From: a bacterium
Lineage (GTDB): Bacteria; Bacillota_I; Bacilli_A; Izemoplasmatales; UBA1188
Length of the DNA stretch: 35,388 nt
Direction of reading: 5' to 3'
Assembly (NCBI GenBank): GCA_017541975.1
Contig: JAFXYB010000001.1
Coordinates: 1 to 35,388, forward strand
Shown here one piece after another: positions 3 to 19,636 of this stretch; position 1 is the first letter of the stretch; every line of letters begins with the position of its first letter. The notes beneath the pieces are model-generated. The model made no database searches. It was not told where the DNA came from and saw only the letters and a program-made list of their open reading frames with translations. The position numbers were made by a program, and so were the translations under genes.

Positions 3-176
3 AAATCTGATGTAGATAATATTGAATTAATAATTCCTAATGATGAAAAATTACTAGAATCTTTAAACAATTATATTTTTGCAATTGAAAAGCGTCAAGA
101 AGAAATAGAGCAATTAGAAAACTTGCGTAATTTATTACTTCATATGCTTATGAATGGGCAAATATCAATAATATAA
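3..176 (+). CDS. hsdS: Type I restriction specificity subunit HsdS, C-terminal fragment cut by the window edge
   Basis: An open frame enters from the left edge and ends at TAA (174-176), giving 57 residues. They read as the C-terminal conserved region of HsdS: a short proline-containing segment (ELIIPNDEK), then a long charged helix with an EEIEQLENLRNLLL run, which in the family packs against the HsdM subunits. HsdS sets DNA target specificity in type I restriction-modification. The upstream part lies outside the window, so gene length and target domains are unknown. Its last 12 bp overlap the end of the opposite-strand hsdS half-gene, so the two are tail to tail. It could be a silent specificity cassette or the end of a separate locus. 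The match rests on the conserved-helix pattern only. Confidence 0.6.
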   Translation, partial: KSDVDNIELIIPNDEKLLESLNNYIFAIEKRQEEIEQLENLRNLLLHMLMNGQISII

Positions 177-743
177 ATTATCGTTTATGCGATTATTTGT
201 ATCAATTTTATCATCAATACATTTTAAGATATTTGCTATTTCTAGCTGTTTTTCATAAGAATAATCTGCTACTTTTGTTTGTCTTATAGATTCCATCGTA
301 ATATTTGGCTGTGCAGAACCTTGCTTGTATTGAAACAAATAACCTTGACCAATTGGACTTTGCAAATAGTATTTTAAATACTCTAAGTGGAAATGATTGT
401 CAGTTAACTCTATTTTTGCGATATTACTAGCAAGTTGACAATCATAATTATGATAAAAGACACCAACTTCACCTAAATTACTGCCAACATATGGAACTAA
501 AATACAATCTTTTGTTAATTTACTTCTTTCCAATTTGTCTGATATTTTTTTACTAATATAGTACTCATATTTTTCAATAAACTTTCCGTTTTTAATGTTT
601 TTACCCTTTACTAATGGAATGTCGTCAGCTTTTACTTTAACCCTTGTTTCATTTTTCTGAATGTATTCAGAATGCTCAAATCCAGCAAGTTTTGTAACAA
701 AAACATGAGAATCTAATATTTCATATTTAATCTCTTTCTTCAT
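165..743 (-). CDS. hsdS: Type I restriction specificity subunit HsdS, half-length (one target recognition domain)
   Basis: 192 residues, about half of a normal HsdS (around 400). Residues 1-160 look like one target recognition domain, ending in the family's GSAQPNIT-like motif. Residues 160-192 begin the conserved coiled-coil spacer (KQLEIANILKCIDDKID) and stop abruptly at TGA. It would direct the HsdM/HsdR complex to half of a bipartite target. Half-size S subunits can dimerise in this family, so it may be functional, or it may be the residue of an inversion. It is third in the operon: its ATG lies inside the end of hsdM (17 bp overlap) with an AAGGAAG ribosome binding site. The end overlaps an opposite-strand hsdS C-terminus. 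Confidence 0.8.
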   Translation of the reverse strand: MKKEIKYEILDSHVFVTKLAGFEHSEYIQKNETRVKVKADDIPLVKGKNIKNGKFIEKYEYYISKKISDKLERSKLTKDCILVPYVGSNLGEVGVFYHNYDCQLASNIAKIELTDNHFHLEYLKYYLQSPIGQGYLFQYKQGSAQPNITMESIRQTKVADYSYEKQLEIANILKCIDDKIDTNNRINDNLYY

Positions 744-2412
744 ATTTTAGCTTCCTTAACTGCTCCTTAATTTGTTTATTAAGTTCATCGCCTTCAGCAA
801 ATAATTTATCTAAAGTTTCTTCATATGATTTCATCTTTGCTTCAAACTCTTCTTGTGTCATTTCAACATATTCAATCTTTACATCAAAGTATTGTCCTGC
901 AGCAAAAGAATAATTTTTCTTCTCTAAATCTTCATATTTAACTAGTACACTAAAGTCATCAACTACTTCTTTATTGATAAATGTATTTTCAATCTTTAAT
1001 ACTTCTTCTGGTTTTAATACAGTCTTTTGGTTTTTGCCTTCTTTAACTTTATCACCAAGTTTTGAAGCATCAACTAAAATGATGTCACCATTTTGGTTTG
1101 TTTTATCAATAAAGATAACTGATACATTAGTTCCAGTATTAGCAAATATATTTGATGGCATTGAAACAACACCTTTTAACCATTTACGGTCAACTATCTT
1201 TTGTCTTATTGTTTTTTCAATTCCAGACTGAGCTGTTAAAAATCCTGTTGGAACTACGATTGCAGCTTTTCCTGAGTCTTTTAATGAAAATAAGATATGT
1301 TGAATAAATAGTAAATATATAGCCATTGATTCTTTTTTGTTATTAGGAATCTTTGGAACTCCAGCAAAGAATCTTTTTTCACCATTGTTATCTGTATATT
1401 CTCCCCATTTACTTTCAATCGTATCTCTAGTAGATGAAAAATCTAATTTGAATGGTGGATTTGAAACGATATAATCAAATTTCTTTAATCCAGATTGTGG
1501 ATCATCTTCAATTAGATAATGAGCAGGCTTTACTAATGTATCGCCTTGGATTGCATTATGTAATGAATCATTTAATCCATTTAATAATAAATTTATTCTT
1601 AAAAATCTTGATGATTTTTGAGATATATCTTGTGTATATACTATAGCTCTAGAGATATCTTTTTCTTTACCTAGTTCATTTGCTAAATGTAATACTAATG
1701 ATCCAGATCCTGCAGATGGGTCATATATTTCACTAGCAGTTATTGTTTCACTCATTCCAACTAGAATCTTTGCGATAATCTCAGATACAGCTTGTGGAGT
1801 AAAATATTCAGCATATCTACCACTTGCTACATTATAATCTTTAATTAAATATTCAAATATTCTCGAATAAAAATCAAAACTGCCATTTTCAAATGCTACT
1901 GAAAAATCAAATTTACTCTTTGAAATATCACTAAAAATTGCTTTAGCAAAGTTATCTTTTGATGATTCTTCTACTTCGTTGCTTATTTTTTCAAACAATG
2001 GTTTCTTTGTGCCATCAGATGTTTCAACATTAAATGCACTATTTCTAGGATTGTTAGAAATGTTTTCTAATGCTTTATCAAACATCTTATAAAATCCTTG
2101 TTGACTTGCATATTGAATTAAATATTCAATTGTATCTTCATAATGAAAAGCTACACTTCCACTATATGCATCATAAAATGCATCTAACTCATTATTTTTG
2201 TTTTTGAAGATATCAGTAATGCTAATCTTTGTATCATCAGAAAATTGTTTTAGGTTGTACATGAATCTGTCATTTAAAAACTTGTATAGGAAAACGGTTG
2301 TAATGACTCTTTCTTCACCACTAGCATTACTTAATCCCTGTTGATTACATATTCCTTTTAATGAATCAATTATGGATTCAATATCATGTTCTAATTTTTC
2401 ATAACTTGTCAT
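727..2412 (-). CDS. hsdM: Type I restriction-modification DNA methyltransferase subunit HsdM
   Basis: 561 residues. It transfers a methyl group from S-adenosylmethionine to adenine N6 in the site chosen by HsdS, and is also a structural part of the HsdR-M-S restriction complex. The N-terminal helical HsdM domain (about 1-160) is followed by the N6-adenine methyltransferase fold: motif I DPSAGSGS at 231-238 for cofactor binding and catalytic motif IV NPPF at 318-321. The charged C-terminal helix (about 520-561) suits contact with HsdS. A strong AGGAGG site precedes the ATG. It lies 11 bp downstream of hsdR and overlaps hsdS, so the three are translated from one message. Length and motifs are normal. 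Confidence 0.95.
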   Translation of the reverse strand: MTSYEKLEHDIESIIDSLKGICNQQGLSNASGEERVITTVFLYKFLNDRFMYNLKQFSDDTKISITDIFKNKNNELDAFYDAYSGSVAFHYEDTIEYLIQYASQQGFYKMFDKALENISNNPRNSAFNVETSDGTKKPLFEKISNEVEESSKDNFAKAIFSDISKSKFDFSVAFENGSFDFYSRIFEYLIKDYNVASGRYAEYFTPQAVSEIIAKILVGMSETITASEIYDPSAGSGSLVLHLANELGKEKDISRAIVYTQDISQKSSRFLRINLLLNGLNDSLHNAIQGDTLVKPAHYLIEDDPQSGLKKFDYIVSNPPFKLDFSSTRDTIESKWGEYTDNNGEKRFFAGVPKIPNNKKESMAIYLLFIQHILFSLKDSGKAAIVVPTGFLTAQSGIEKTIRQKIVDRKWLKGVVSMPSNIFANTGTNVSVIFIDKTNQNGDIILVDASKLGDKVKEGKNQKTVLKPEEVLKIENTFINKEVVDDFSVLVKYEDLEKKNYSFAAGQYFDVKIEYVEMTQEEFEAKMKSYEETLDKLFAEGDELNKQIKEQLRKLKYEERD

Positions 2413-2423
2413 TAGTCTTCCTC

Positions 2424-5400
2424 CTAATACAATTGTAAATTAACAAACAAATTACCTAAAACAGTATCAAATAAAGTATTTAAAGCTAATGAAGAATATA
2501 ATCCTTCTTTTAATAGTTTACCTGATGTTTGTTTTTTAATATTAGCTACAAAGTTAGTTCTGCCTAATAATACTAAGTTATTAACAGATTTGATACCAAC
2601 CACTGCTTCAGATATAATCTTAACAAATTTTAGTACTTTATCTTTTTCAAATTCAGGATGGTTTTTACAAATATCTTGATATGTTTTAACGTATGCAAAT
2701 TCACCATTAAATTCAGCTGATAATTTTTCATTTTCTTTGTTGATTTTTCTCGCTTTTTCGATAGCTTCTTGTATTTCTTTGCTTAAACTATCAATATCAT
2801 TGGCATTGTTAAAAGCTAATTTATCAAATGCATTCTTTAGTAATACATCTAAACTTATTACTTCTTCATCATCATGATTCTTAATCTTCTTTACTTCATG
2901 AGCTAATGTATCAATATAAACTCTAAAGTTATCCGGAACTTTGATATTCTTTAAATCAAGCACTATTGTCCTAATCTTTACAAATTCAAATAATAACTCT
3001 ACAACTTCCTTTTCACTTAAGAAGTCCATTGTTTGAAGAGGGTTACCTGTTAGATTTAGAAAATCAATTCTATGTTGAACTAGTTTTACTAATTCTTTGA
3101 AATGTTTCCTGTCTATTTGAGCTGCCTTTTCATCTTCATGAGATAATAAGAATTCAGTTTTGCAATCTAATATTGTATTTATTAGTTTTCTTAATTTATA
3201 CAAAGGATCCTTATCATTAAATCTTTGCAAGAACATATCGTATTCTTCTAGATTATCATGGTCATGAATTTCTTCTAATCTTTCTAATGCGTTTTGATAC
3301 TTCTTTTCTATTTCATTAACATCAAATACTAGTTTTCCACCATTAACTGATGATGGATCATCTGGATCTGTTAATTCTTCATTTAATTCTTTTAAGTATT
3401 GGGCTACAGTTCTATCATATTCTTCTGTAATATCAACAAAGTCAGATATATATCCATATTGATATGTTTTACCATTGGGACTCTTATATGGCCTATTAAC
3501 CCTAGATATCGTTTGAAGTAATGAGTGTTCTTTTGGAGCTCTTAATAAATACATCTTTTTAAGTCTTGGAACATCATATCCTGTTGTAAGCATTAAATTT
3601 ACAATTAAGATATCAATTCCATTTTTAGCAGTCTTAAAATCCTTTTGACTCTCTTTATTTACTTCAGATGGAACTTCATCTGTTACAAGCCTTGTGTTTA
3701 AATTAGAGAATTTTTCAAACCAATTCTGCATTTTTGCTGCTTGAGGGTTAGAGTGGCATACTATCATTGCACCAATGCTTGGATCTCCATTAACATATCT
3801 AAAGTTTTTAAAATCATCTTCAATATATTTTGCAAGTGCAGCTACATATTCATCTGATTCTAAAATCTTTTGTTTTTCATTCTCTCTTTTCCCTTTTAAT
3901 TCTAATTCAAGATTTCTCTTAATATCAGCTTTAGCGATAGTCTCCATTTCTTCTTTCTTAATTTTTAAAGTATAGCCATCAAGAATAGATCGGTCATAGA
4001 AATATTTATGAATATATTCACCAAATCTTAAATTTGATCTTTCTTTCTTGGAAAGCAGTGGAGTACCTGTCATTGCAAGGAAGATAGCATCTCTATCTAC
4101 CAACATTAAGTTTTTATAAAATTCTCCTGTTCCTTTAGAATAACTTCTATGTGCTTCATCAACAAAGAAGATTCTCATAGTTTTAGCATTATAATCATTA
4201 GATACTTCTGGAAGTGAATCACTAAACTTTTGAATATTTACTACACAACATGCGCCAAATGCGGATTGGTTCTTTTTCTTATCAAGGCTTCTATTTAGTT
4301 CATCAACAAATGCTTCTTTACCATCGACGCTTACAGCTTCAACTCCACGCATTTCAAACGCAGCTTTTGTTTGATTTAATAATTCTAATCTATCAACTAC
4401 ATAGAAGAATCTTGCATTAATTCCTTGTTCAGCATAGAAATCTCTAATTATTCTATTAACATATACAGCTAGTTCAGTTTTACCAGAACCTTGTGTATGC
4501 CAAATAATACCTGATTTACCACCATTCTTGATTCTCTTTAGGATTGCTTGAGATGCAAAAAACTGAGGATATCTCATAATATGTTTTTTAACAATATCTT
4601 CATCAACATAAACAATTCCATATTGTAACAAATACAGTAATCTAGATTTTTCAAATAATGATGTAATAAATGAATTACAAGGTGTATTAATTGCGATATT
4701 AGTTTTATATTCTAATGTATCCATTACATCGGGTGAGTAGCCATTATCAATTAATAAATCTTCAATAACATCATTATCATCTTCAAGTAGTGGAACTTCT
4801 TCTTTGCTTTCTTCTCTAAAGAAATTGAATGTTGTTTGTGAACCATTAGGTGTTGAATAGAATGAGCCTTGTTTTGGCTCTGTTTCTCTATCATCATCTG
4901 TTTCATATGGCATATTGTTAGAAAAGCACGTTAATTGAATCATATTAAAATATTTTCTATGTTCAATTTGTTCGTATCTCTTATTAACCATACGATCAAA
5001 TTCAACTTGAATTCCACCTTCGTTATTAGGTTTTTTTACTTCTAAAAAGGCTAGAGGAATACCATTGATTAAAATATTTATATCTGGTCTAAAATGCCCT
5101 TCATCTTTTTCGCCAAATTTTAATTCGTTTACAACTTCAAACACATTATTATTAATATTCTTAAAGTCAATCAAACGTGGTTTGTCTATTGGGTTTATTA
5201 ACCAAGCATAGAACTCTTTTCCTAAATCATTATTTGATATCGTATTATGAATTTTATCAATAATACCTTTTATCTCTTCATCGTCATATTCTTTATTATT
5301 AATTTTGGAGATGCTTTTTTTAAATGTATCCACAAAAATTTTGGTTTTAAAATCAATTAAACCATTTTCCAATGCATTATTATATGACCTATACTTATAA

Positions 5401-5474
5401 CCAAGCCTTAAAAAGTGAATTGTACCTGGAAATTTAACTCTTGTATCTTCATTGAAAGCAACTCTTAGTTCCAT
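2424..5474 (-). CDS. hsdR: Type I restriction endonuclease subunit HsdR (translocase/nuclease)
   Basis: 1016 residues. This is the motor and nuclease of the type I complex: it pumps DNA with ATP and cuts unmodified DNA away from the recognition site. The N-terminal PD-(D/E)xK nuclease is visible as RPD (129-131) and EVK (145-147). The superfamily 2 motor follows, with Walker A TQGSGKT (327-333) and DEAH (439-442); SRVNRPY further on is motif VI. The C-terminal 300 residues are helical and probably contact HsdM. It is first in the operon. The ATG has an AGGAGA site about 12 nt upstream, and an extended -10 (TGATAAAAT) sits 40 bp upstream beside a palindrome. The gene looks intact. Confidence 0.95.
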   Translation of the reverse strand: MELRVAFNEDTRVKFPGTIHFLRLGYKYRSYNNALENGLIDFKTKIFVDTFKKSISKINNKEYDDEEIKGIIDKIHNTISNNDLGKEFYAWLINPIDKPRLIDFKNINNNVFEVVNELKFGEKDEGHFRPDINILINGIPLAFLEVKKPNNEGGIQVEFDRMVNKRYEQIEHRKYFNMIQLTCFSNNMPYETDDDRETEPKQGSFYSTPNGSQTTFNFFREESKEEVPLLEDDNDVIEDLLIDNGYSPDVMDTLEYKTNIAINTPCNSFITSLFEKSRLLYLLQYGIVYVDEDIVKKHIMRYPQFFASQAILKRIKNGGKSGIIWHTQGSGKTELAVYVNRIIRDFYAEQGINARFFYVVDRLELLNQTKAAFEMRGVEAVSVDGKEAFVDELNRSLDKKKNQSAFGACCVVNIQKFSDSLPEVSNDYNAKTMRIFFVDEAHRSYSKGTGEFYKNLMLVDRDAIFLAMTGTPLLSKKERSNLRFGEYIHKYFYDRSILDGYTLKIKKEEMETIAKADIKRNLELELKGKRENEKQKILESDEYVAALAKYIEDDFKNFRYVNGDPSIGAMIVCHSNPQAAKMQNWFEKFSNLNTRLVTDEVPSEVNKESQKDFKTAKNGIDILIVNLMLTTGYDVPRLKKMYLLRAPKEHSLLQTISRVNRPYKSPNGKTYQYGYISDFVDITEEYDRTVAQYLKELNEELTDPDDPSSVNGGKLVFDVNEIEKKYQNALERLEEIHDHDNLEEYDMFLQRFNDKDPLYKLRKLINTILDCKTEFLLSHEDEKAAQIDRKHFKELVKLVQHRIDFLNLTGNPLQTMDFLSEKEVVELLFEFVKIRTIVLDLKNIKVPDNFRVYIDTLAHEVKKIKNHDDEEVISLDVLLKNAFDKLAFNNANDIDSLSKEIQEAIEKARKINKENEKLSAEFNGEFAYVKTYQDICKNHPEFEKDKVLKFVKIISEAVVGIKSVNNLVLLGRTNFVANIKKQTSGKLLKEGLYSSLALNTLFDTVLGNLFVNLQLY

Positions 5475-11344: not shown

Positions 11345-11405
11345 AAAATAAAAAGATAAGCTTTTTTTCTTAAAAATATTATAAATTTTTAAGATTTGCT
11401 TATCT
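11345..11405 (-). terminator. Terminator of the LacI-type regulator gene
   Basis: On the minus strand AGATAAGC (11398-11405) pairs with GCTTATCT (11354-11361), with an inner AT-rich stem (CTTAAAAA/TTTTTAAG), followed by TTTTATTTT. The stem includes part of the stop codon. It separates this operon from pnp. Confidence 0.8.
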
Positions 11406-12435
11406 AGATATTTAATAATTTTTTCAAATTTGTATCTGATGAACCATCATATAGTTTTGTATCAATTAAGATGGTTTTTATAGTTGTTTCAAAGTATTTG
11501 ATGTCAGAAATAATTGTATCTGCGGCTACTTCACCAATTTTTACTATTGATGGTTTTATTGTAATAATTGGCTCATTGCTTTCATCAATATAATCAATTC
11601 CATCAATTGCCACTATTGACACATTTTTATCTTTAAAAAAATCTGAGTCTTTAAGTTTAGATATAGCGTGCTTTGCGGCTTTTTTACTTGAACAAATGAA
11701 AGCTGTAGGTGTTATTGGTAATTCTTGAATGTTTTTTAAATCTTCTTCAAGTGAAGTACCATTTAAATTATAATATATTGATGCAGGATCACCTAGATGT
11801 TTTCTATTTATTACTTCAAGGACATCTTTTACACCATAGAATCTTTCACCAAAGTAGTTTAATCCTTGTCTTTCAGAGACATATGCTAAATTTCTATGAC
11901 CTTTTTCATATAAATATGAAACTGCAAGTCCTCCAGCTTGATAGTTGTTCATTTTAATCTTAGTGAACTCAGAACCCATATAATCATTTGGATCAACGAA
12001 TTCAATTGGTTTGTCGATAACTCTTAAGGCATCAAGTATTTCCTTTTTTAGTGTTTTAAGGATGATATATCCTTTTACTTCTTTTAGGTGAATATCTTCA
12101 AATACATCTTGTAGAGTTGATGATTCGTCCCAAAATATCAGCTGATATTTGTAGCCTTCACGGATGAATATTTTTTCTGCGCCTTCTAAGAATTTGCCAA
12201 AATATTTTGACATAATGGCAAATTTTTTGTCTATAAAAATACAGATTCTTTTTTTGTGATCTGTATTCTTATTATTGTAGTTGTAGTTGAAGTCGTATCC
12301 TAGTTCTAAAGCTTTTTTAAATATTTGATAACGTAATTCTGAAGATACGCCATATTTATCGTTTAAAGTTAAAGATACTAGTGATTTAGAGATGCCGAGA
12401 CTATCGGCAATTGTTTGCATTGATACTTTTTTCAT
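11404..12435 (-). CDS. LacI-family transcriptional regulator
   Basis: 343 residues, the normal LacI length. An N-terminal helix-turn-helix (about 4-25: MQTIADSLGISKSLVSLTLN) would bind operator DNA, and the rest (about 60-343) is the periplasmic-binding-protein-like sugar sensor, visible in YLYEKGHRNLAYVSERQG and ICSSKKAAKHAI. The usual hinge helix is not obvious; the linker is Asn-rich (NYNYNNKNTDHKK). It lies 66 bp downstream of the isomerase-like/ROK kinase gene in the same direction and ends in a terminator, so it probably controls sugar phosphorylation genes. The ligand cannot be read from the sequence. No clear ribosome binding site precedes the ATG. Confidence 0.88.
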   Translation of the reverse strand: MKKVSMQTIADSLGISKSLVSLTLNDKYGVSSELRYQIFKKALELGYDFNYNYNNKNTDHKKRICIFIDKKFAIMSKYFGKFLEGAEKIFIREGYKYQLIFWDESSTLQDVFEDIHLKEVKGYIILKTLKKEILDALRVIDKPIEFVDPNDYMGSEFTKIKMNNYQAGGLAVSYLYEKGHRNLAYVSERQGLNYFGERFYGVKDVLEVINRKHLGDPASIYYNLNGTSLEEDLKNIQELPITPTAFICSSKKAAKHAISKLKDSDFFKDKNVSIVAIDGIDYIDESNEPIITIKPSIVKIGEVAADTIISDIKYFETTIKTILIDTKLYDGSSDTNLKKLLNI

Positions 12436-12501: not shown

Positions 12502-14328
12502 TTAATATTTTGTGAGGGCTGCGGCACCATAAGCTCCAGCTTCATTACCGAGGGTCGCATGAACGAGTCTAACCTTAGGTGCATCAAATCCGCTATATTT
12601 ATAAGCGTTCATTTTTCTTTCAAGGAGAGGAATATATTTAGAGATTACATATGAAACTCCACCACCAATAACAATTACTTCTGGTTGGAATAGATTGCAG
12701 ATATTCACAAGACCTAAGAGGAGATTGTTTTGGTATTTCTTGACATATTCTTTAGCTGCTTCATTTGTTTCATCTAATTGGAAAATTTTAAGTGGTTTAT
12801 CATCATCACTAATTAGTTCTGCAAGATGTGTTTCTGGATTAGCTCTTAATTGATCAACATCGAGTTTTAATCTCTTAAGAGATAATAGCGCTTCAAAACA
12901 GCCATATTGGCCACATGTGCATTTGAAACTATCAGATTTAACTTTCATATGTCCTACTTCTGAAATTGAACCTTGGCCGCCTTTGAAGAGCTTGCCATCA
13001 ATGATGGCACCACCACCAACGCCAGTACCAAGAGTTACTAAGAACATATCGTGGTATTTTCTCTTATCTGTATAATAATATTCACCAAGGGCTGCGCAGT
13101 TAGCATCGTTATCGATGATAACTTCAATTCCGAGTTCCTTACCTAAAAGTTCTGCGATAGGTGAATTAGTGAGTCCGAGGTTATTGGAGAATTTTACAAT
13201 TCCATTAACGGTATCTATATGTCCTGGGAAGCCTACACCAAGTTTAGTGAAGTAATTTCTTGGGAAATTAGAGTTTTTGATTAAGCCTAAGAAACATTCT
13301 TTCATATGGCCGACGATTACTGCTTCACCGAGTTCACTTTCGGTTGGTGTTTTACATTCAGCAATCTTATTAGCGGCATCATCGATGATGGCGCCTTTAA
13401 TTGATGTGCCACCAACATCGAGTCCGATACCATAATCAGCGAATCTAGTGATTAATAATTCGCCTTTACCTTCTAAGTGAAGATATGATGATGGATCTAC
13501 TAGGAAAGAATCACCTCTTTTGAATTCTACAGTATCAATTGATAATTGTCCTCTTGTGATAGTAACCAAAGAGAATGAACCTTCATTGAATCTTAGATTA
13601 TATTTATCAAAGATATTATATTTGATTACTTCGAAATATTTTCCAGCATAGAGAACTTTAGCTTTTCTATCGATATCTGTGTTTACTACGTATTGATTAT
13701 AATTTAAGACATTTAAGCCTTCTTCTAAGTTCAATAGTGGATCTAATCTATCGTAATCATATAATCTATATGATGTATCAACTCCTTGTGATACTTCATA
13801 TAGAGTTATACCTTTACCTATTGCATAAATTATTCCTGATGGTACTTTATAATAGTCACCTACTCTAACCTGTACTTTATTTAGGCAGTTTAAAATAGAG
13901 CCATCTTTGATAGCTTCTTCTATTTGTTCTCTTGTATAATCGTTATTGAAACCGAGGTAAATACATGCATCTTCATCAGTATCAAGGATATACCATAGTT
14001 TATTATCACCAAGTTTATTATGATGAATAATCGCATATTCATCAGAAGGTGATACTTCAACTGGCATATTTTCACCTGCATCGATGATTCTAACGAATAG
14101 ATTTACATCTTTATTTTCTAAGTTTTTACCAAGTTTATTTGATTTTATATAATCTTTTAGTAAAACAGTTTTTTCGTCTCCTTGAACAGAAGGCATAGAT
14201 GAATCATCAAGGGAGAATTCAATTGAATCAGAAAGCGATTCAAGCTCTGTACCCTTATGATAACGATATTTAAGTTTAGTTCCAGCCCAAATGGACTGAT
14301 TGAAAGTAGGTTTGATCTTATAGAACAT
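12502..14328 (-). CDS. Fusion of a degenerate mannose-6-phosphate isomerase-like domain and a ROK sugar kinase
   Basis: 608 residues. Residues 1-298 have the short Bacillus-type class I isomerase fold (SIWAG, WYIL, SYRLYDYDR), but the zinc-ligand positions read E91, S93, K110 and Y168 instead of Gln, His, Glu and His. Residues 299-608 form a complete ROK kinase: ATP motif GLDVGGTSIKGA, catalytic DNDAN (406-410), GTGVGGG, and the ROK zinc site H460, C470, C472, C477 (CTCGQYGC). The likely activity is ATP-dependent glucose or hexose phosphorylation, with the isomerase part probably binding sugar phosphate or serving structure. The ATG at 14328 is preferred over GTG at 14343 because GAGGT lies 8 nt upstream. 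A LacI-type gene follows. Confidence 0.85.
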   Translation of the reverse strand: MFYKIKPTFNQSIWAGTKLKYRYHKGTELESLSDSIEFSLDDSSMPSVQGDEKTVLLKDYIKSNKLGKNLENKDVNLFVRIIDAGENMPVEVSPSDEYAIIHHNKLGDNKLWYILDTDEDACIYLGFNNDYTREQIEEAIKDGSILNCLNKVQVRVGDYYKVPSGIIYAIGKGITLYEVSQGVDTSYRLYDYDRLDPLLNLEEGLNVLNYNQYVVNTDIDRKAKVLYAGKYFEVIKYNIFDKYNLRFNEGSFSLVTITRGQLSIDTVEFKRGDSFLVDPSSYLHLEGKGELLITRFADYGIGLDVGGTSIKGAIIDDAANKIAECKTPTESELGEAVIVGHMKECFLGLIKNSNFPRNYFTKLGVGFPGHIDTVNGIVKFSNNLGLTNSPIAELLGKELGIEVIIDNDANCAALGEYYYTDKRKYHDMFLVTLGTGVGGGAIIDGKLFKGGQGSISEVGHMKVKSDSFKCTCGQYGCFEALLSLKRLKLDVDQLRANPETHLAELISDDDKPLKIFQLDETNEAAKEYVKKYQNNLLLGLVNICNLFQPEVIVIGGGVSYVISKYIPLLERKMNAYKYSGFDAPKVRLVHATLGNEAGAYGAAALTKY

Positions 14329-14346
14329 ATGTGTGTACCTCACTGA

Positions 14347-14803: not shown

Positions 14804-17800
14804 TTATTCAATTGTACCATCTGTGCAAATAATCTTTGGGAGTTTATTAGATGGATCTATTTCGATCTCATTCCATTCTGCCTTCGTACCATTATAAATA
14901 ATTGATGATAAGTTTACACAATCTTTGAAAATATCTTTTCCTATTTTCTTTAGACTCTTTGTGATAGTAATTGATTCTAGGATATCACAATTATTAAATA
15001 CATAATCTCCTATTGCTACAACAGCCTCTGATAATTCAATAGTCTTAATAAAATCTAGGTTAAAGAATGAATTATTATCTAGTCCAAACTCATAGACATA
15101 TCCAACATCATCTGAGAAATAAAATCTATTTGGAATTATAACGTTAGGACTATTACCTGTATACCTTATAATCAAATACTCTCCAACGCTCGTATTTAGG
15201 GCATAAGAAAATGAATCTTTATAATTGTATACTTTATCGGCATAGAAAGCGACAAATCCATAATTTGATGTACCTTGTGTAATCTCATTCGTCCTATAAT
15301 TATAGACTGTTTTTAAATTGGTGCAGCCATAAAACGCAGTCTTTCCAAAGTTTATTGATGCATTAGGTATTGTCACAGAGGTAATATTTTTATTATTGGT
15401 AAATGATAGGGTATCGATTGTGTATGATGTTATAGTTTCTCCATCATATATAAATGATTCTGGGAAAATAATATCTGTGTCTTCTCCAAGATAATCTGTG
15501 AGGAACCACTTTGTAGCACCATCCATTCCTTTTTTAAAGACAAATCCATTTTCATCAGTAGTTGAAATAGAATCGTCAATTGTACGAGTGATATTTCCAA
15601 TAACTAAACTATCAATATCGTTTGCATCAAAATCAATAACGCTACCAGTGCATTTTTGTACATATAGTGCATAATAAGCGGCTCTTCCCAAAACTTCTGA
15701 ACCTAAACTTAAAGATTTATCAGAATAGTTAAAGACCATTTTTATATTGCTGCATCCGTAAAAAGGATAATAAATATAAAGACTTGAACGATTAACATTA
15801 TTAGCATAATCTGATCGTACAATAATACTTTCAAGACTTGTTATAGATTCAGGCAAAACTAACACTTCAATAGATTTACAATTTGTAAATGTATAAACCC
15901 TTAATGTTTCGACGGCGTTCGGAATCACTAAAGTTTTTACTAATTCATCATTTAAATATAGGTTTTGTGCATAATAGAGTGGATTAGAAAAGTTTTGAGT
16001 AGCTTGTGCCAAATCTGAGTAAAAAAATTCATATTCAAATTCTATCTTGCACCACGCCTCAATATTTTTGATATTTACTTTGTTTAGGGATGTGCACTTA
16101 TAGAAAGCTGATAATCCACATTTAGTTAATGAATTTGGTATATCGACAGCTTCAAGCATATTGCAATTATTGAATGCATATCGACCAATAGTTTTAAGAG
16201 TTGATGGGAAAATAATTGTTTTTAAAGTAGTATTTCTATCAAAAGCATAAATTTCTATTGACTCAGTTCCTTCCGAAACTATGTAGTTTTCACCAATACT
16301 GGTTGTTGCTAAGATTAATTTCTTTAGATCTTTTGAATATAAACAACCATTATTTGATTTATTGTATTCATTATCACTTGCAACTTCTATAGATTGAAGT
16401 GGTATTGAATTATAGAAAGCATTTGTATCAATTGTAGTTACGCTACTAGGAATAGTTACGTTCTTTATACTAGTGCAATAATAAAATGGTATTTTATTAA
16501 TTGTTGTAACACCTTCAGGTATTATTAAATCAGTTAGTAATTCATCATTCAAATATAAATCATGTGAAAAATATGATGGATTTGTATAATAATCATTTTC
16601 AAAGACAATATTACACCAACCTTCTAAATTTTTAATAATAACCTTTTTAAGAGATGTACAACTAGTGAAAGCATTTGAGTTTATTGCCTTCACACTGCTA
16701 CCAATCCCAATTGTAACCAATGATTTATAATTGCTGAAAGCATATTCATAGATTATAGTGACGTTATCTGGAATGATTATTGTTTCATCATCTCCATCAT
16801 ATGAAATAAGTATTACTTCATCTCCGTCTTTATGTATTATAAATTTGCCATCTTTTTCTAATACTGATTCATCGTTAGATAAATACCTAACACTGCTTGA
16901 AGCGCCATATTCTGAGTTTAAAATAGCTGAATTTAATTCAATATTTGATTTGTTTATAATTTCATATAATTTAGTACAACCACTAAAACATGATTTATTA
17001 ATTATCTCTACACTTTCAGGGATTGTAATGGTTGTTAAAAATGAGCAATTTGCAAATGATCCATAGGCTATTGATTTAATAGTTAATCCAGGTAGTGCTT
17101 CATTAAAGTCAAAATACTTAATGTCTTTATTTAACAACTTGAATAATAATACGTTATTATCGTCAGCTAAAAAATATGAATAATCATCATTTTCCACAAA
17201 TTCAATATTTTCATAGTTATAATTATATTCAAAACTTGTGAATGAATTAATTTGTTTCTTAAAAGCACTTAATTCTTCTTCTGTTCCCTTATAGAAGCAA
17301 TAATTAGTTTGTAATGAAGTTATTACATTATTAGTAATATATTTGATACCTTTTGGTAAAATAACATAATTTAATTTTGCATTAAGTATGCCATATCCAC
17401 CAATTATTAAACAGTTTTCATGTATTGTGATATTATTTATCGATTCATCGGCTACGTTTACACAAGCTAAATAAGGGTTATCTATACTGCCTAAATAACA
17501 TCCATTACCAAATACATTATATTTAATAGATGGACAACCTTGGAATGCATACAGTTGAATATTTTCAATTGTATTTGGCAAAATGATATTCTCTAGTGAA
17601 GTATCATTGTAAAATACATTATTATTGATTGTGGTCAAACTATCAGGGATAGTAATTGATTCGAGTGATAAGCAGTTAGAAAGAGCATAGTTTCCCATAG
17701 ATGCAAGATTATTTGATAAGTTAATGCTTTTTAATTTTTCACAGTTATAAAAAGCATATTGATCTATTTCTATAACACTATCTGGAATAGTAATAGTTTT

Positions 17801-19636
17801 AAAATTTGTATATGCAAAGGCATATCTGCCTATTGATGTTACACTATCAGGAATTGTTGAGGCATTACATGCAGCAATAATCTTGTTTGTGCTTTTTTCA
17901 ATAATTACGTTATTATTAAGAGATGTATATATTGTATTTTGTGAACTTACTTTTATTTCCTTCAATGAAGAACAACCATAAAATAATGAACCACCAATTT
18001 CATTTACCGATGAAGGAATATTAATTGATTCAAGTTTAGGACAATTTATAAAACAGTTAACATCTATATATTTGAGTCCTTCATTTAACACAACAGTTTT
18101 TAGATTTTGGCAATCTCCAAATACTGTGCGGCCTAAAGTTAAAACGCCGGATGGAATATTGATAGTAGTTAACGAAGAACCAGAAAACGCATATTCACCA
18201 ATACCCTCAACGGAATTTGGAATTGTTATTTCAGAAATATCCAGATTATAAAAAGCATAACTTCTAATATCACTTACATAATTAGGTATTATAGTGTTTT
18301 TTGTCCCTATTACTAGGCCGCCATAATATCCAGGTCTATAGATAAGAGCATTAGAACCATTTCCCGAAGTGTAATAAGGGTTATTTTCATCGACAACTAT
18401 GCTTTCTAATGAAGTGCAACCCAAAAATGGCCTCATCATATTGCCATTAATAGACAACTTTGCAGTGCTAGGAAAATATATTGATTTTAGTGATGTACAA
18501 GAATTAAATGCATTGTCTTCTATAATTTCAACACCTTCTGGTATTCTTACTGATCTAAGTGATGAACAACCACTGAATGCATTGGTTCCTATAGTTTTTA
18601 CTGAACTTGGAATGCTAATTGAGGTTATATTTTTACAGTTTTGAAAACCAGCTACGTATGTTACACCATATGGAATAGAAACGCTCTTAAGTGACCAACA
18701 GTTAGTAAACATATACCCATTATATCTTTCACTATCAATATGAATATCATTAGCATTTATTGTTTCAACTAATTTTCCATTTAGATATAGATAATGAGCA
18801 AAATATAGTGGATTATATGATACTGAATCCACGCTAATTTTATTAAAAGCATTTAAATCACTTATTTCTACTCTTTCAAGTGATGTGCAATAATTAAATG
18901 CGTTAGTTCCAATTCTATTTAATACTGGTGATATATATACAGATTTAATATTGTTCAGACCTGAAAAACCATTTGTTTTTATTTCTTTAACTGGTTTATT
19001 ATTGTAAGTTGCTGGAATAACTACTGCTTCGTATTCATAGTCTTCTTTCGCTGAAACAAAATAGTATGTTTCATCTCTAGTTAGTTCAAATACAAGACCA
19101 TCGATATAAGAAAGTGAATCAATTACATAATCAGGATCTATATAAATATCGTCACAATTATTGCACTTTCTATATCTATATCCATTTGCAGTATCAGTTG
19201 GTTGTACTATTACCCAATCAGTTGAATAGTTATGGACATGTTCTGTGGTTATGTTTTCTTTAGTTGTAGTTATTATTTCTTGTGTTGTAGTAACTATCTC
19301 TTCTGTAGTAGTAATTATCTCTTGTGTGGTGGTTACTATCTCTTGAGTAGTTGTGATATTCTCTTTTGTAGTAGTAACTACTTCTTTGGTTGTGGTAGTA
19401 ACTGGCTTCTCTTTCGTAGTTGGTTCGTTGTAGGTTGTAGTAGTTGTAGGAGTATCCTCTTTAGTAGTAGTTATTTCCTTACTAGATGTTGTACTACTAT
19501 TGTTATCTACTGTTGTAGTAGTCACAGTATCTTTAGTCGTAGTTAAAGGGGTTGTACTAGTAGTATCATCATTTGTGCAACCAATGATTATTAACAATAA
19601 GGATAGGATTAATATTATTATTCTTGTGCGTTTCAT
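14804..19636 (-). CDS. BspA-like leucine-rich-repeat surface lipoprotein
   Basis: 1610 residues. A lipoprotein signal (MKRTR, hydrophobic 6-18, lipobox IIGC with C20) anchors it to the outer face of the membrane. Residues 21-135 are a Thr-rich stalk with seven tandem heptads TTTxExx (81-129). A short Cys pair (RKCNNCD) follows, then dozens of BspA/LRR_5 repeats (pattern IPxSVxxIGxxAFxxCxSLxxI). A module with NPLYFAHYLYLNGKLV-like sequence recurs at least three times, and YNGTKAEWNEI near the end is a usual BspA closing motif. Such proteins mediate adhesion to host or other microbes; here this is inferred. An AAGGAG site precedes the ATG, and the gene stands alone with its own promoter. Confidence 0.9.
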   Translation of the reverse strand: MKRTRIIILILSLLLIIIGCTNDDTTSTTPLTTTKDTVTTTTVDNNSSTTSSKEITTTKEDTPTTTTTYNEPTTKEKPVTTTTKEVVTTTKENITTTQEIVTTTQEIITTTEEIVTTTQEIITTTKENITTEHVHNYSTDWVIVQPTDTANGYRYRKCNNCDDIYIDPDYVIDSLSYIDGLVFELTRDETYYFVSAKEDYEYEAVVIPATYNNKPVKEIKTNGFSGLNNIKSVYISPVLNRIGTNAFNYCTSLERVEISDLNAFNKISVDSVSYNPLYFAHYLYLNGKLVETINANDIHIDSERYNGYMFTNCWSLKSVSIPYGVTYVAGFQNCKNITSISIPSSVKTIGTNAFSGCSSLRSVRIPEGVEIIEDNAFNSCTSLKSIYFPSTAKLSINGNMMRPFLGCTSLESIVVDENNPYYTSGNGSNALIYRPGYYGGLVIGTKNTIIPNYVSDIRSYAFYNLDISEITIPNSVEGIGEYAFSGSSLTTINIPSGVLTLGRTVFGDCQNLKTVVLNEGLKYIDVNCFINCPKLESINIPSSVNEIGGSLFYGCSSLKEIKVSSQNTIYTSLNNNVIIEKSTNKIIAACNASTIPDSVTSIGRYAFAYTNFKTITIPDSVIEIDQYAFYNCEKLKSINLSNNLASMGNYALSNCLSLESITIPDSLTTINNNVFYNDTSLENIILPNTIENIQLYAFQGCPSIKYNVFGNGCYLGSIDNPYLACVNVADESINNITIHENCLIIGGYGILNAKLNYVILPKGIKYITNNVITSLQTNYCFYKGTEEELSAFKKQINSFTSFEYNYNYENIEFVENDDYSYFLADDNNVLLFKLLNKDIKYFDFNEALPGLTIKSIAYGSFANCSFLTTITIPESVEIINKSCFSGCTKLYEIINKSNIELNSAILNSEYGASSSVRYLSNDESVLEKDGKFIIHKDGDEVILISYDGDDETIIIPDNVTIIYEYAFSNYKSLVTIGIGSSVKAINSNAFTSCTSLKKVIIKNLEGWCNIVFENDYYTNPSYFSHDLYLNDELLTDLIIPEGVTTINKIPFYYCTSIKNVTIPSSVTTIDTNAFYNSIPLQSIEVASDNEYNKSNNGCLYSKDLKKLILATTSIGENYIVSEGTESIEIYAFDRNTTLKTIIFPSTLKTIGRYAFNNCNMLEAVDIPNSLTKCGLSAFYKCTSLNKVNIKNIEAWCKIEFEYEFFYSDLAQATQNFSNPLYYAQNLYLNDELVKTLVIPNAVETLRVYTFTNCKSIEVLVLPESITSLESIIVRSDYANNVNRSSLYIYYPFYGCSNIKMVFNYSDKSLSLGSEVLGRAAYYALYVQKCTGSVIDFDANDIDSLVIGNITRTIDDSISTTDENGFVFKKGMDGATKWFLTDYLGEDTDIIFPESFIYDGETITSYTIDTLSFTNNKNITSVTIPNASINFGKTAFYGCTNLKTVYNYRTNEITQGTSNYGFVAFYADKVYNYKDSFSYALNTSVGEYLIIRYTGNSPNVIIPNRFYFSDDVGYVYEFGLDNNSFFNLDFIKTIELSEAVVAIGDYVFNNCDILESITITKSLKKIGKDIFKDCVNLSSIIYNGTKAEWNEIEIDPSNKLPKIICTDGTIE
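19250..19396 (-). repeat. Seven tandem 21-bp units encoding TTTxExx heptads
   Basis: Residues 81-129 of the lipoprotein read TTTKEVV, TTTKENI, TTTQEIV, TTTQEII, TTTEEIV, TTTQEII, TTTKENI. The DNA units are similar but not identical. They form a surface stalk that could vary in length by slippage or recombination. Confidence 0.75.

Follow-up and report, generated by a model that had tools for sequence, protein, structure and literature searches.

A putative pseudo-enzyme derived from class I mannose-6-phosphate isomerase at the N-terminus of a predicted ROK hexokinase

Kinases regulated by a pseudo-enzyme domain, either fused to them or bound, are already known. Mammalian hexokinase I retains its inactive N-terminal half as a regulatory glucose 6-phosphate site, but that half arose by duplication of the kinase and not from an isomerase. 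GNE (UDP-GlcNAc 2-epimerase/ManNAc kinase) resembles the protein described here in having a sugar-converting domain N-terminal to a ROK kinase; GNE differs in that neither half has lost activity and its epimerase is not related to the phosphomannose isomerases (PMIs). Vertebrate GKRP belongs to a different fold family and is a separate protein that acts in trans on a kinase from an unrelated family. The likeness of our protein to GKRP is one of working only, namely the regulation of a hexose kinase by an isomerase-type structure, and for our protein the regulation is only proposed. GKRP, whose structure is of the sugar-isomerase (SIS) type, has fructose phosphates as ligands and regulates glucokinase (PMC4109836). 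The relatives of the two halves are the short class I PMIs (1QWR, BaM6PI), homologous to the N-terminal domain, which has kept the core Trp, Gly, Arg and Asp positions but lacks the metal ligands and the catalytic Lys and is fused to a kinase, and the ROK glucokinases (TIGR00744; 2QM1, 3VGK), which match the whole kinase domain with its motifs intact but carry no dead PMI at the N-terminus. Among the titles and abstract openings of the open-licence literature searched, none describes a PMI-ROK fusion or a PMI pseudo-enzyme.

The fusion gene lies on the minus strand of the window (the whole analysed stretch of 35,388 nucleotides) at positions 12502..14328 and comprises 608 codons and a stop. 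The ORF list extends it to 12502-14343 (-), with a GTG start at 14343 that overlaps a conserved Shine-Dalgarno sequence, GAGG (14338..14341, minus strand). Since this GAGG stands 9 nt upstream of ATG 14328 and three relatives show conservation of this region, ATG 14328 is most likely the start of the fusion, and we count it as residue 1; the extent given to the PMI domain by the initial annotation agrees with this. The class I PMI-derived domain encompasses residues 1-298 (13435..14328, minus strand) and the ROK kinase domain residues 302-608 (12505..13425, minus strand). The profile HMM analysis confidently assigned the latter to PF00480 (200.2 bits, cut-off 22.9), and inspection of the motifs DVGGTSIKG, DNDANCAALGE, GTGVGGG and ExGH...CTCGxxGCxE, which we take to be the ATP, catalytic and zinc motifs, confirmed the earlier claim that all of them are intact. 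Against the ROK glucokinase family TIGR00744 the kinase half scored 182.2 bits, below the curated cut-off of 260.35, so that we predict a ROK hexokinase to which glucokinase specificity is not assignable at this score.

The N-terminal half is recognizable as a class I isomerase by sequence homology, in agreement with the initial annotation: phmmer aligned residues 10-283 of its query with B. subtilis ManA (1QWR) over 274 residues with an E-value of 1.4e-27, and our class I profile A1 matched the domain with an E-value of 7e-61. PF20511 gave no match in this domain, and its score against TIGR00218 (manA), 69.5 bits, is below the cut-off of 116.2; the intact free PMI of a related genome (G006) also falls just under that cut-off (113.6 bits), so that the shortfall alone says little. 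The AlphaFold2 model of the full fusion (36 alignment rows) was good in the ROK half, while most blocks of residues 1-221 had a pLDDT below 50, and the PMI domain modeled alone (5 rows) reached a mean pLDDT of 42.6. The only part of the PMI domain modeled with moderate confidence was the C-terminal cupin half beside the kinase (pLDDT about 56-81 per block).

In the B. amyloliquefaciens PMI (BaM6PI) the metal ligands are Gln98, His100, Glu118 and His175, and the catalytic residues are Gln98, Lys116 and Glu118 (PMC4718643). Alignment of the window's domain with class I isomerases placed E91 (14056..14058) at the ligand Gln, S93 (14050..14052) at the first ligand His, K110 (13999..14001) at the ligand Glu and Y168 (13825..13827) at the last ligand His, all on the minus strand, exactly the four replacements and the numbering first proposed for this protein. 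The catalytic Lys, which had not been listed, is lost too: GKTE has become GDNK, with D108 (14005..14007, minus strand) at the position of Lys116. By comparison, the metal-ligand columns read Gln/His/Glu/His in all 66 rows of free PMIs obtained from the order and class searches, and the catalytic Lys is present in 62/62 free class I rows, the four longer PMI-like rows having Gln there. (These 66 rows remained from 73 profile matches after 2 identical copies fell out and 5 rows were dropped by name, namely 2 duplicates and 3 fragments of longer PMI-like ORFs, L015_119, L023_127 and L191_39, among which a G038 gene has no other representation in the 66 rows; three of the 62 class I rows are ORFs of 637-652 aa that extend further at the C-terminus.) Across the 62 class I rows, invariance reaches 95% or more in 33 columns; the window's clade, which consists of the window's own genome (G000) and two relatives (G003 and G005), has lost 16 of them, including all five catalytic ones (hypergeometric P 0.018). 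The invariant positions kept in this clade include W14, G16, P94, W112, G126, G165, E178, R188, D191 and R194, of which R188 (13765..13767, minus strand) is Arg in 62/62 free class I rows. H24 and H284 are the sole His residues conserved across the three dead-site domains, which share no conserved Cys and no conserved His or Cys cluster, so that no substitute metal site is apparent. The proposal that the domain is a pseudo-enzyme is thus well supported by the loss of the ligands and the catalytic Lys in three species, and the domain is very probably devoid of isomerase activity. We considered and rejected a sequencing or assembly error, because the same four replacements occur in three metagenome-assembled genomes (MAGs; G000, G003, G005), as well as a gene-prediction error, because the start is conserved and the relatives are gap-free.

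A search for the same fusion in relatives, with comparison of the four positions, had been suggested in the initial annotation; it found the fusion in six of the seven genomes of a one-genus family (G000, G001, G002, G003, G005, G006), with G003 and G005 sharing all four replacements. The fusion was not found in G004, a genome 85% complete and split into about 200 contigs. There were no further full-length fusions in the order (90 genomes), in the phylum (392) or among the matches listed for the class (395), these samples overlapping one another. Three fusions (L084-L086) were among the best 80 named loci from 520 relatives, and the flanks retrieved for the remaining 77 yielded no PMI; the three named copies come from rumen or ruminant-gut MAGs, namely yak rumen RGIG10250 (L084, G003), RUG448 (L085, G005) and Reindeer_2_mag_168 (L086, G006). 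The viral contigs yielded one free PMI, with no fusion and no PMI found with profile A3. All six fusions are located near pnp, which in the relatives we presume from its N-terminus, recognized by eye.

Unfused PMI and ROK genes are direct neighbors in G145 (where the manA-rok pair overlaps by one base), G263 (where it presumably follows a nagA-like gene, judged by eye), G313 and G516, so that in-frame fusion of adjacent genes is the simplest origin. One such locus, L206 (G516:C3), comes close to a fusion, with manA and rok in one frame, and was rejected as such owing to the stop between them; the reading frames in G516 stay open only if TGA is translated as Trp. In the kinase tree, all six fused kinases fall into a single clade (support 100/100). 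The PMI tree, built without the fusions of G006 and G002 (too decayed) and without the four longer PMI-like rows, likewise unites the remaining four fused PMI domains (100/99) and separates them from the free PMIs of G002 and G006.

The Gln ligand is lost in all six fusions. That of G001, where it is replaced by Lys, is the sole one to keep His, Lys, Glu and His, and at this position it resembles B. subtilis ManA (BsManA), an inactive protein in which the Gln is likewise Lys and to which K96Q restores activity (PMC4718643); because of this same difference, the G001 isomerase may already be impaired. The next stage is seen in G000, G003 and G005, with E/S/K/Y at the ligand positions. The fusions of G006 and G002 have retained no ligand and lost segments of the PMI domain while their kinases are intact; their N-terminal domain has no Pfam or NCBIfam match at E 0.1 and was still found pairwise (E-values 1.4e-19 and 1.7e-6), and each of these two genomes owns a separate complete PMI gene. 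From G001, where Gln alone of the catalytic positions is gone, the three dead-site species and the further decay in G006 and G002, we conclude that a once-active isomerase was fused and then eroded. The initial annotation described a complete, coordinated loss, which holds for the window's clade but is only one stage of this gradient and, with 16/33 invariant positions gone, reaches beyond the metal site. The kinase tree groups G001 with the dead-site clade with moderate support (81/98), which would imply at least two independent catalytic losses; one loss would suffice if G001 were the first branch. A single genus thus displays graded stages between enzyme and pseudo-enzyme (G001, then G000/G003/G005, then G006/G002), all on one orthologous kinase at one locus, so that the usually hidden path from adjacent genes through fusion and catalytic loss to an accessory domain can be tested with six natural proteins.

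All three dead-site proteins have a length of 608 aa and align without gaps, and E91, S93, K110 and Y168 are identical in all of them. The NG86 dN/dS values for residues 1-298 in the three pairs are 0.14, 0.16 and 0.26 (bootstrap upper bounds 0.21, 0.24 and 0.36), rough figures as dS (1.0-1.5) is near saturation, but the difference between a pN of 0.18-0.22 and a pS of 0.55-0.65 is clear. The absence of gaps, the low dN/dS and the fixation of the four replaced residues suggest that purifying selection has continued to act on the PMI domain since it lost catalysis, assuming one loss in the common ancestor of the clade. Its dN/dS is nevertheless two to three times higher than that of the kinase (0.07-0.09). 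Between G000 and G001 the PMI domains are 39% and the ROK domains 67% identical, whereas in the operon pair G145/G263 (one pair only) the values are 54% and 43%; the PMI domain thus seems to have sped up since the fusion, which counts against a special role.

PTS HPr was found in none of the seven family genomes (the control search was positive in 7 of 14 named genomes), and the fusion is the sole ROK match in G000, G001 and G005; the fused kinase is therefore probably the main hexokinase of the cell. Additional ROK matches comprise a weak one in G003 (E-value 2e-6) and one each in G002 and G006, and G004 has one, non-fused. PGI is present in 7/7 genomes of the family. The fusion bears on how hexose phosphorylation might be controlled in bacteria without a detectable PTS.

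We tentatively favor, at slightly less than even confidence, a model in which an in-frame fusion in the ancestor of the genus joined a class I PMI gene to a ROK kinase gene of the neighboring type, the isomerase lost catalysis stepwise (every fusion lacks the Gln, and the window's lineage lacks the His, Lys, Glu and His besides), and the ex-isomerase persists as a non-catalytic N-terminal domain of the probable main hexokinase, serving as its hexose-6-phosphate product-feedback module. The metal-free former active site would still bind hexose 6-phosphate via the retained R188, D191, R194 and E178, and its occupancy would act on the kinase as product feedback, a role that GKRP, with its isomerase fold, plays for liver glucokinase; this part, ligand binding and regulation by the dead domain, is speculative and, drawn by analogy, possible rather than probable. 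A sugar-phosphate sensor is plausible given the purifying selection after the loss, the retention of E178, R188, D191 and R194, and a partner that probably serves as the cell's principal hexokinase. The domain evolves faster, however, and has almost dissolved in G006 and G002, which would also fit a structural or vestigial role, and both are serious rivals; in these two genomes the isomerase-shaped pocket is apparently dispensable, since much of the core is lost while the kinases are intact; this suggests that an isomerase-shaped sensor is not generally required. We can further speculate, with considerable doubt, that the metal site was not just dismantled but rebuilt (E91/S93/K110/Y168), which would make this built-in hexose-6-phosphate sensor an intramolecular bacterial counterpart of GKRP with its intermediates preserved in one genus; that E91 and K110 form an ion pair where the metal sat is a guess.

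The persistence of the domain in frame in all six fusions, even with the shrunken core of G006 and G002, would also be explained if it were purely structural, stabilizing or oligomerizing the kinase and sensing nothing, and the gap-free dead-site proteins and the moderately modeled cupin half next to the kinase agree with this; yet that C-terminal half is no more conserved than the catalytic half, and E178, R188, D191 and R194 are kept in the window's clade without obvious structural need, so that we consider a purely structural domain rather unlikely. The reversal of PMI and ROK identities between G000/G001 and the operon pair, together with the gross decay in G006 and G002, both with a separate intact PMI, could instead mean that the PMI became useless after the fusion and decays under relaxed selection, held only by the upstream start codon. 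Neutral decay at a pS of about 0.6 should, however, give pN near pS, or stops or frameshifts, while the dead-site clade exhibits a much lower pN, no indels and four fixed replacements, which makes a mere vestige improbable. Finally, G000, G003 and G005 yielded no second class I PMI, no PGI/PMI C-terminal domain and, above the cut-off, no type II PMI, and R188 and D191 are kept, as expected if the domain had remained an isomerase that uses other ligands or dispenses with metal. A separate PMI could, however, be missing from these assemblies (82.5-92% complete), the two conserved His residues form no cluster with each other or with Cys, Lys occupies the position of the metal-binding Glu, and the catalytic Lys is gone; moreover, the lone Gln-to-Lys difference already inactivates B. 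subtilis ManA (PMC4718643), and residual isomerase activity is thus very improbable.

Directly downstream of the fusion, on the same strand, the window encodes a LacI-family regulator (11404..12435, minus strand), whose HTH scored 22.6 bits, below the Pfam cut-off of 27. Such a gene directly follows the fusion only in the three dead-site species (window, L077, L078) and is not beside it in G001, G006 and G002. The window also encodes a 1610-aa BspA-type leucine-rich repeat protein (14804-19636, minus strand; PF13306, 11 stretches), with what by eye we take to be a Thr-rich region after a lipoprotein-like signal, and a type I restriction-modification set (165-5474, minus strand) of specificity subunit, N6 methylase and HsdR.

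Other PMI architectures were encountered as well. L072:952-2907 (G276:C2) is a PMI with intact ligands fused to a GDP-mannose 4,6-dehydratase (PF16363, 358.8 bits), adjoining what by eye is presumably a nucleotidyltransferase-like gene, and L074:1695-3602 (G381:C33), its sister in the PMI tree, is probably the same fusion. L071:2046-3965 (G223:C11) is an ORF of 639 aa whose N-terminal part is an intact PMI, in a genome with a second, short PMI (L197). The longer PMI-like ORFs L188, L189, L190 and L192 (G062, G017, G023 and G039; about 575-619 aa) exhibit QVHP and all metal ligands, with Gln for the catalytic Lys (YTQDE), and form a PMI class of their own within this order.
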